DNA of 42,843 nt. Origin: a virus. Where the stretch lies: the IMG/VR virus record IMGVR_UViG_3300048597_000073, positions 1 to 42,843 of that record; one strand, given 5' to 3'. The notes under the pieces are model-generated. The model saw only the letters and a program-made list of their open reading frames with translations, had not been told where the DNA came from and ran no database searches. The position numbers and the translations under genes are program-made. Below are positions 3,095-40,154 of the stretch, piece after piece (within the stretch, counting starts at the first letter, position 1; every line of letters starts with the position of its first letter).

Positions 3095-3390
3095 GGCCGC
3101 ACCGCGAAGACCGACGCGACGCCGAAGCGGCTTTCGTCCGTCTCAGGCGAACGAAGCGCCTCGCCCGGACGGCCGCCGAGCTGCGGCAGCTCCGCGCGCA
3201 CCTTGCCGAGATTCCCCATCGCTTCGATCACGCCCTGGCAGTACGCGATGGCGAGCGCGTAGTGCAGCTGCTCGACGGCGGCCAGCGGCAGCTGCGCGCC
3301 GACGGTCTGCAGGGTGGTGACGAGGGTGCCGAGGCTACGGTTCGCGTAGTCGCGGGCGGGGGTGTTCGAGGCGGGCATCGTTGGCTCCAT
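3091..3390 (-). CDS. First gene after PL, function unknown
   Basis: 99 residues from ATG 3390. A second in-frame ATG at 3378 has the better ribosome site (GGAG 6 bases upstream) and would give 95 residues. The protein is mostly helical (residues 14-65), soluble, with a disordered C-terminal third; it has no recognisable domain. It occupies the place of lambda N, directly after the repressed early promoter. It is not Arg-rich at the N-terminus like N, so an antiterminator role is not supported by its sequence. Its stop overlaps the start of the next gene. Confidence 0.7.
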   Translation of the reverse strand: MEPTMPASNTPARDYANRSLGTLVTTLQTVGAQLPLAAVEQLHYALAIAYCQGVIEAMGNLGKVRAELPQLGGRPGEALRSPETDESRFGVASVFAVRP

Positions 3391-38736: not shown

Positions 38737-38756
38737 CCTTGCCAGCGCCTTGCCAG
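38737..38756 (+). repeat. Arm-type repeats, pair 1 (candidate integrase/Xis sites)
   Basis: CCTTGCCAG occurs at 38737-38745 and again at 38748-38756, 11 bp apart. The same 9-mer, orientation and spacing recur on the other side of the attP core. Confidence 0.7.
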
Positions 38757-38788
38757 TTCTGGGAAGTCTGCTCGTAAGTTGCTGATTC

Positions 38789-38833
38789 TGGTGGGCGCGA
38801 CAGGGATCGAACCTGTGACCCCTTCCATGTCAA
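38789..38833 (-). other. attP: attP core: 3' 45 bases of a tRNA-Val(GAC) gene
   Basis: Read on the minus strand, the 45 bases begin TTGACATGG (anticodon loop with GAC), then the anticodon-stem 3' arm GGAAG, variable loop, a T arm of ACAGG-TTCGATC-CCTGT, the acceptor half CGCGCCC and ACCA. The 5' part of a tRNA is absent, and the anticodon stem has no partner here, so this is not a tRNA gene. It lies 8 bp from the integrase stop. Integration would restore the host tRNA 3' end. Confidence 0.88.
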
Positions 38834-38852
38834 CGACGGTGCTATCCGTCGT
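38833..38852. terminator. Hairpin at the end of the integrase gene
   Basis: ACGACGG (38833-38839) pairs with CCGTCGT (38846-38852) around a 6-base loop that contains the integrase stop codon. No good U-tract follows on either strand, so it may be a weak or factor-assisted terminator, or a structural part of attP. Confidence 0.4.
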
Positions 38853-39981
38853 TTACGGCTACTTGAGACGACCCGAGTAGCAGGTCGGCAACGTTCGAAT
38901 TCAACGGGTTGGCGTTCGCACCTTGCCAGTCCCTTGCCAGTGGCAGCCAGCTCGGGGCGAGCTCGCGGAGCATGCGCTCGATCGCGTCCCGGGCGGCGCC
39001 CATGAAGTCCGGCCGCGCGTGCGCGTAGCGCTCGGTCATCGTGCCGCCGAACCGGTGCGCGAGGAGCGCGGAGACGTCGGCCTCCGGCACCCCGTGCGCG
39101 CGCAGCCAGGTCGCCGTGTACTTCCGGATCCGATACCCCGATCCCGCGACGCCGGCGCGCTCGCAGATCCGCTGCAGCTTCTTCTTCCACTCGCGGATGG
39201 GCCGAATCGTCTTCGTGTGCTTTTCTGAACGCACTACGGGGCCGATGGAGCGGCGCGCCTCCAGGTAGTCGCGCAGGGTAGGGGCGACCGGCGCGATGGC
39301 CCTGCGCTTCTTCGTGATGCGTCGGCCGGGCACCCGGAAGTCGATCATCGTCGGCGCGACGCGGTCCCACGTCAGGTCTGGTACGGCGCCCGGACGGCAG
39401 GCGGTCGCGAGGCAGATCAGCACGAGCAGCCGCTCGCCTTCGGTCTGGCAGGCCTCCAGCACCGCGCGCATTTCCTCAAACGTGAACGGGTCGACGCCAG
39501 CGGTTTCCTCGGCCTCGGGCCGTGCGAGGGGCTTCGTGTCCGGCAGCTCGCCGAGGTCGGCCGCGCGCTTCAGGGCGGACCGGATCACGCCCATGTACCG
39601 AGAGATCGTGCCGGCGCTGCAGCCGAACGCCCGCAGCTGCTCGATGAACCACAGCTGCTTCGACCGATCGAAGCCGGCGACCGTGACGCCGGGCAGGTGC
39701 TCGTTGACGTGCGCCAGCGCGTAGCGGATCGGGTCGCGGGAGGTGCGGCTCTTGCCGTGGTGCTGCCAGTAGCGGGACAGCACGAGCTGAACGGTTACGA
39801 GGTCGGGTCGCTGGTCGCGGGGGCGGTCGAGTTCGAGGACGAGCTTCGCGCGTGCCGTCTCAGCTTCGGCGCGATCGCGCGTGCGAGCCGATCGGCGGCG
39901 TGGGCGTCCAGATTCGTCGGTCCAGCAGACGTAGTAGGTGCCGGGGCGGTCGGGGAAGTCGTTTCGCAGGTAGAAGCGCAC
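38842..39981 (-). CDS. int: Tyrosine integrase
   Basis: 379 residues, GTG 39981. The N-terminal arm-binding part (YYVCWTDESGRPRRRSARTR) is followed by a SAM-like core-binding domain (about 60-150) and the catalytic domain. Catalytic residues: R196 (TACRPGAVPDLTW), Lys in RITKKRR (224-225), R286 in GYRIRKYTATW, H309 (LLAHRFG) and nucleophile Y319 (TERYAH). In the HxxR box the usual His is Tyr283. It integrates the phage at tRNA-Val(GAC) and sits beside its attP. One pair of arm-type repeats lies inside its 3' end. Confidence 0.92.
   Translation of the reverse strand: MRFYLRNDFPDRPGTYYVCWTDESGRPRRRSARTRDRAEAETARAKLVLELDRPRDQRPDLVTVQLVLSRYWQHHGKSRTSRDPIRYALAHVNEHLPGVTVAGFDRSKQLWFIEQLRAFGCSAGTISRYMGVIRSALKRAADLGELPDTKPLARPEAEETAGVDPFTFEEMRAVLEACQTEGERLLVLICLATACRPGAVPDLTWDRVAPTMIDFRVPGRRITKKRRAIAPVAPTLRDYLEARRSIGPVVRSEKHTKTIRPIREWKKKLQRICERAGVAGSGYRIRKYTATWLRAHGVPEADVSALLAHRFGGTMTERYAHARPDFMGAARDAIERMLRELAPSWLPLARDWQGANANPLNSNVADLLLGSSQVAVNDG
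38921..38940 (+). repeat. Arm-type repeats, pair 2, inside int
   Basis: CCTTGCCAG at 38921-38929 and 38932-38940, 11 bp apart, in the same orientation as pair 1. They encode LARDWQG near the C-terminus of the integrase. Confidence 0.7.
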
Positions 39982-40154
39982 GCGGTCACCTGGACGTAGC
40001 GGGCCAGCTGGTCCTCCCGGATTTTGACCACTCGGCCGATCCGGATAAAGCCAAGCCGGCCGCGGCGGCGCTCCCGGGCGACCGTCTCGGGGTCGCAGCC
40101 CAAGTACTCGGCGGCCTGTTCGTCTGTGTACAGCTTCGGGAGGGCCGTGATCAC
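39795..40154 (-). CDS. Excisionase-like MerR/HTH_17 protein overlapping int
   Basis: 119 residues; GTG 40154 overlaps the previous TGA (GTGA). Residues 6-56 (LYTDEQAAEYLGCDPETVAR, then GRLGFIRIGRVVKIREDQLA) are a winged helix-turn-helix of the excisionase type. Residues 58-119 are Ser/Thr/Pro-rich, encoded where the frame runs through the first 187 bases of int, so they may be an accident of a missing stop codon. Gene order xis-int with overlap is classical. It would bend attP DNA and direct excision. Confidence 0.75.
   Translation of the reverse strand: MITALPKLYTDEQAAEYLGCDPETVARERRRGRLGFIRIGRVVKIREDQLARYVQVTACASTCETTSPTAPAPTTSAGPTNLDAHAADRLARAIAPKLRRHARSSSSNSTAPATSDPTS

Follow-up and report, generated by a model that had tools for sequence, protein, structure and literature searches.

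The segment 38737-38940 of the viral genome IMGVR_UViG_3300048597_000073 (analysed over its whole length of 42,843 bp, hereafter the window) is very probably the attP of a temperate phage, whose tyrosine integrase would insert into the host tRNA-Val(GAC) by means of CTGGCAAG arm pairs. An earlier note had read the segment in this way, and the reading is supported by a footprint conserved in relatives, a tRNA junction of a sister phage, a predicted fold like that of lambda integrase and rare codons beneath one arm pair. The site is a lambda-type, tRNA-targeting attP and ordinary in kind; its comparative anatomy and the flipped orientation of attP relative to the integrase gene (int) are the interesting parts. 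For an uncultured phage family, the sequence by itself is enough to define the host target, the core with its likely crossover, and the arm sites.

Arm repeats and layout of the site

The window possesses a 127-bp terminal direct repeat and is therefore a closed circle, so that the site is an attP and not a prophage junction. Its features, all on the minus strand, are the following:

38737-38756, minus strand: arm-site pair R, on the CCA side of the core, two CTGGCAAGG copies (38748-38756 and 38737-38745) 11 bp apart
38775-38787, minus strand: IHF-like box AATCAGCAACTTA (consensus WATCAANNNNTTR, one mismatch), 1 bp after CCA
38789-38833, minus strand: attP core, the 45-bp 3' half of tRNA-Val(GAC), TTGACAT...CCACCA, identical to the 3' half of the sister-phage junction tRNA
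38827-38833, minus strand: anticodon loop TTGACAT, probable 7-bp overlap (crossover) region, where the identity of sister-phage attP and junction starts
38842-39981, minus strand: tyrosine integrase, 379 aa, C-terminus AVNDG, PF00589 at residues 167-323
38899-38911, minus strand: IHF-like box CAACCCGTTGAAT (consensus YAANNNNTTGATW, one mismatch), 77-78 bp before the anticodon loop
38921-38940, minus strand: arm-site pair L, inside the integrase ORF, two CTGGCAAGG copies (38932-38940 and 38921-38929) 11 bp apart
39795-40151, minus strand: small HTH_17 ORF, candidate excisionase, overlapping the integrase start by 187 bp

The 9-mer CCTTGCCAG is present in exactly four copies in the window (38737, 38748, 38921 and 38932, all on the plus strand), against 0.19 expected, and four copies were reached in none of 100 shuffles. 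According to an unbiased scan it is the sole 9-mer in the window with two 11-bp tandem pairs inside 300 bp, a pattern (+11, second pair <300 bp) that appeared in 0 of 60 simulated sequences. Number, spacing and common orientation of the repeats are exactly as the earlier note had given them. The gaps between core and pairs measure 87 bp (38834-38920), as had been stated, and 32 bp (38757-38788), one base less than the 33 bp claimed; the description as mirror-spaced fails, since all four repeats are direct and the two gaps unequal.

The location of pair L inside the integrase coding sequence is borne out, with 38921-38940 forming the codons for LARDWQG. The codons GCA (6.8%), AGG (3.4%) and CAA (5.2%) used there are rare within their codon families in this 70% GC genome, and the pair is located at the start of a tail predicted to be disordered; the DNA site, and not the peptide, therefore appears to be constrained. 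It is extremely improbable that the repeats are incidental, or that the coding pair is conserved merely because the protein sequence LARDWQG is. One pair does lie within a protein-coding gene, but chance does not yield such a quadruple in the shuffles and simulations, the coding pair uses the rare codons listed above, and the non-coding pair is equally conserved in the sister phage L002 despite diverged flanks. Furthermore, the same octamers in the reversed attP sites described below encode LASPLP-like residues or fall outside int.

A near-perfect inverted repeat (GTCAACGACGG / CCGTCGTTTAC, 38829-38856) adjoins the probable crossover. It is also present in L002 and was not seen in the other attP sites.

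Footprint in relatives

Relatives were collected by integrase searches and by a search of viral contigs for the arm pattern, and L022 via its shared tRNA core. With L015 carrying the same attP as L016, and L058 the same as L061, nine distinct relatives were obtained, whose integrases are 42-98% identical to that of the window: L002 (98%), L013 (69%), L003 (65%) and, at 42-46%, L008, L016, L018, L019, L061 and L041. The integrase of L022 is 32% identical. Both arm pairs are kept in eight of the nine relatives (L002, L003, L013, L008, L016, L019, L061 and L041), L003 and L041 having one-base octamer variants in their R pair; L018 has lost one pair. Among nine attP sites aligned at the L pair, including the window, all 16 positions of the two CTGGCAAG octamers are invariant, as are AA and TGA of an IHF-like box; elsewhere the spacer is mostly variable. 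In every one of these nine sites, 106 or 107 bp separate the start of the L pair from TTGACAT. From CCA to the start of the R pair the distance is 32-37 bp in most relatives, with L019 (4 bp) and L041 (55 bp) as exceptions. No convincing helical phasing emerged for the right-hand gap, which takes values of 4, 32-37, 55 and 61 bp. Repeated sequences that are conserved as arm-type sites would be thus occupy both sides of the core, as in a lambda-type attP.

The left IHF-like box is found 77-78 bp before TTGACAT with 0-1 mismatch in all nine sites (window, L002, L003, L013, L008, L016, L019, L061 and L041), and in L022 88 bp before the anticodon loop. The right box, on the CCA side, is exact in L008 and L061 and has one mismatch in the window, L002, L003, L013, L016 and L022; it is located 1-4 bp after CCA in seven of the nine sites of the aligned set and is absent from L019 and L041. 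Shuffle frequencies per site (left box 0-0.083, right box 0.002-0.012 where tested) are modest; the constant position argues more strongly for the boxes. IHF may be used at them.

The arm pattern CTGGCAAGNNNCTGGCAAG matched 39 viral stretches; most single-pair matches lack a related integrase in the stretch examined and are probably unrelated. A scan of genome contigs returned only a distant integrase (L021, 29%), and named phage and plasmid records likewise only distant ones (<31% identity). A literature search for CTTGCCAG together with attP gave nothing relevant in titles and the first lines of abstracts.

Integrase and neighbouring ORF

The PF00589 match of the integrase has an E value of 4.4e-10, and its catalytic domain is marked by R196, K225, R286, H309 and Y319, invariant across 11 integrases; the usual H of HxxR is Y283. 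An AlphaFold model of moderate quality (pLDDT 77.6, pTM 0.56) predicts a beta-beta-beta-alpha N-terminus at about residues 1-51 (E2-6, E15-21, E27-31, H37-51; pLDDT mostly ~83), followed by core-binding and catalytic helices. Residues 354-379 have pLDDT < 50, the tail being predicted as disordered from about 354. Lambda integrase (1z1b) is the best PDB fold match. No Pfam arm-binding domain was called in the integrase, even at E 0.5; from the topology of the model, the N-terminal domain may nevertheless have an arm-binding role.

All ten integrases of the two orientation classes defined below end in ND(D/G) (window end 38842-38859, minus strand). The codons vary synonymously and the residues before them are diverged, which points to selection at the protein level. 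This end resembles the AAND start of tmRNA tags, which we take to be a mere resemblance. L008 possesses a similar HTH_17 ORF overlapping its integrase.

tRNA core, crossover and host target

ARAGORN called no whole tRNA in the window, which is expected because the core comprises the tRNA 3' half only. The intact attP of the L002 phage occupies the left end of contig 000151; at the right end of this contig ARAGORN calls a complete tRNA-Val(GAC), which passes into the phage R arm. Compared with each other, sister-phage attP and junction have 0 bases in common upstream of TTGACAT and 127 of 127 compared bases downstream. To judge from this comparison, the right end joins phage and host in the manner of attL/attR, and the crossover falls on the first base of the anticodon loop or past it. 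A crossover at the anticodon loop has been described for classical bacterial tyrosine recombinases (PMC8371274). Integration into tRNA-Val(GAC) is thus documented for the sister phage, although the junction could in principle be an assembly join. Core, crossover and tRNA restoration of the anticodon-loop subclass of tRNA-targeting attP sites are present in this junction, which has the same 45-bp core as the window. The shared core suggests tRNA-Val(GAC) as the target of the window phage as well. The earlier note had proposed looking for a tRNA-Val(GAC) with a prophage behind it, and a close version of this was found: a complete tRNA-Val(GAC) joined to a phage arm, in the sister phage and not in the window phage.

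Among 398 genomes from the phylum that includes G005, none has an exact host match to the tRNA-Val. In the class of an Azospirillum MAG, 6 of 289 genomes possess a close tRNA-Val(GAC) gene, and no arm pairs lie behind these six in the stretch examined. These six genes make an alphaproteobacterial host plausible.

Integration by this very probable attP would proceed as follows. The N-terminal domain of the integrase would grip the CTGGCAAG arm sites, two per side of the core, with the 11-bp spacing putting two protomers on the same DNA face. IHF-like bends just inside each pair would fold the arms back, and the catalytic domains would carry out strand cleavage and exchange around the 7-bp anticodon loop TTGACAT, the 45-bp phage copy restoring the tRNA 3' half. 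Protein binding at each arm site, the use of IHF and the exact cleavage points are inferred in this scheme. An attP with decayed recombination function is very unlikely. Each IHF-like box of the window has one mismatch and a prophage of the window phage is not in hand, but the integrase ORF is intact with its five catalytic residues conserved, the sister phage has a host junction, and the genome is closed and circular.

Orientation of attP relative to int

Two classes are distinguished by the orientation of attP. Class A comprises the window, L002, L003 and L013; here the tRNA and int share a strand, and int contains the L pair. In class B, with six relatives (L008, L015/L016, L018, L019, L058/L061, L041), attP has the opposite orientation with respect to int, which contains the R pair (lost in L018) and whose ORF runs antisense through the core; the int end encodes LASPLP-like residues there, compared with LARDWQG in class A. 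Core-relative distances are unchanged between the classes, so that the position of the arms is tied to the core, not to the integrase gene. Class A forms one clade (100/100), and the two groups need only the minimum number of changes on a tree in which the root and the placement of L022 are unsure. An obligatory co-evolution of arm site and protein C-terminus, as the earlier note had it, is too strong a claim given the reversed attP of six relatives, in which other residues are encoded, and the predicted disorder of the tail past ~354.

The reversed sites also bear on whether the repeats, beside a real attP core, are operators through which a phage regulator or excisionase, such as the HTH_17 protein, controls transcription or excision. 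Winged-helix proteins binding head to tail would fit 11-bp direct repeats as well, and the HTH_17 protein is encoded beside int. This explanation is nevertheless very unlikely: the pairs keep fixed distances on both sides of the core regardless of whether they fall in non-coding DNA or in the int 3' end, and where they lie at the int 3' end they are about 1 kb from the int start. In the reversed attP they keep their place, and thus follow the core, not a promoter, as integrase arm sites would.

In the window the core does not lie inside int, which stops at 38842, 8 bp before the core (38833). In class B relatives L008, L016, L019, L061 and L041 int reads through the core, and integration into a generic tRNA-Val is predicted to change the tail from ...HVKDRAEPIILPLTAANDD to ...HVKVVLYR. 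As a tentative reading, which we hold to be possible and not probable, an attP cassette (arm pair, bend, tRNA-Val core, bend, arm pair) has turned over as a rigid unit with respect to int within one family, and attP orientation decides whether the prophage integrase keeps a control tail. If this were true, the window orientation would leave the integrase unchanged on integration, and class B integration would swap the conserved AANDD tail for host-encoded residues.

L018 (3513-3785) contains a complete antisense tRNA-Val(GAC) directly behind the integrase body, with a remnant of the usual core further on and the R pair gone. The arrangement may be a hybrid attP or a rearranged prophage end.

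More distant integrases

L022 (8130-8400) possesses the identical 45-bp tRNA-Val core, flanked on either side by an IHF-like box. As arm word it carries GTGCCACGC, in tandem at 11 bp; the R sites are located at 32/43, and the L sites are displaced by 11 bp. By its sequence, L022 appears to be a natural switch of arm specificity. In another integrase branch, L059 (4114-4345) and L045 (4060-4270) have CTGGCAAG pairs flanking a tRNA-Val core whose anticodon reads as CAC. Their octamers and the tRNA lie on opposite strands, and the spacing of one pair is 12 bp. Arm word and core target are thus separable, and with CTGGCAAG and GTGCCACGC at equal 11-bp spacing the specificity of the integrase N-terminal domain becomes testable.

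Comparison with known systems

Acetobacter phage phiAX1 (LC644973) has a 45-bp tRNA-Val core 93% identical to that of the window, adjoining an integrase gene. In contrast, flanks and arm word are unrelated, and its integrase is only distantly similar (E 8e-9 to the family profile). CTGCAC occurs in phiAX1 (L004, 3109-3125) at 3109 and 3120, 11 bp apart, between core and annotated integrase, as a candidate arm pair.

The attP of ICEMlSymR7A, used by IntS, is 283 bp long with five arm motifs, all needed for efficient integration (PMC11963761). It is likewise compact, compared with 204 bp here, and has several short arm motifs, but these are five with the consensus TGKTGGTATC, and the element is integrative and conjugative, not a phage.

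In Myxococcus phage Mx8, attP lies inside int and integration rewrites the integrase 3' end (PMC6070905). The overlap of attP with int is shared, and in class B the integrase 3' end would be altered on integration in the same manner; in the window, however, the int stop precedes the core, only an arm pair is coding, and the protein would be unchanged by integration.

Phage lambda attP, recombined by Int, carries arm-type sites and the IHF sites H1, H2 and H' (PMC4880445). Similar to it are the tyrosine integrase, probably heterobivalent with a putative N-terminal arm domain and with lambda integrase as its best fold match, and the possible separation of arm from core sites by IHF bends, represented here by IHF-like boxes. 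Unlike lambda with its five arm sites, the present attP has four, arranged as two identical 11-bp pairs, with one IHF-like box per arm, a core formed by the tRNA-Val anticodon stem-loop, and one arm pair inside int.
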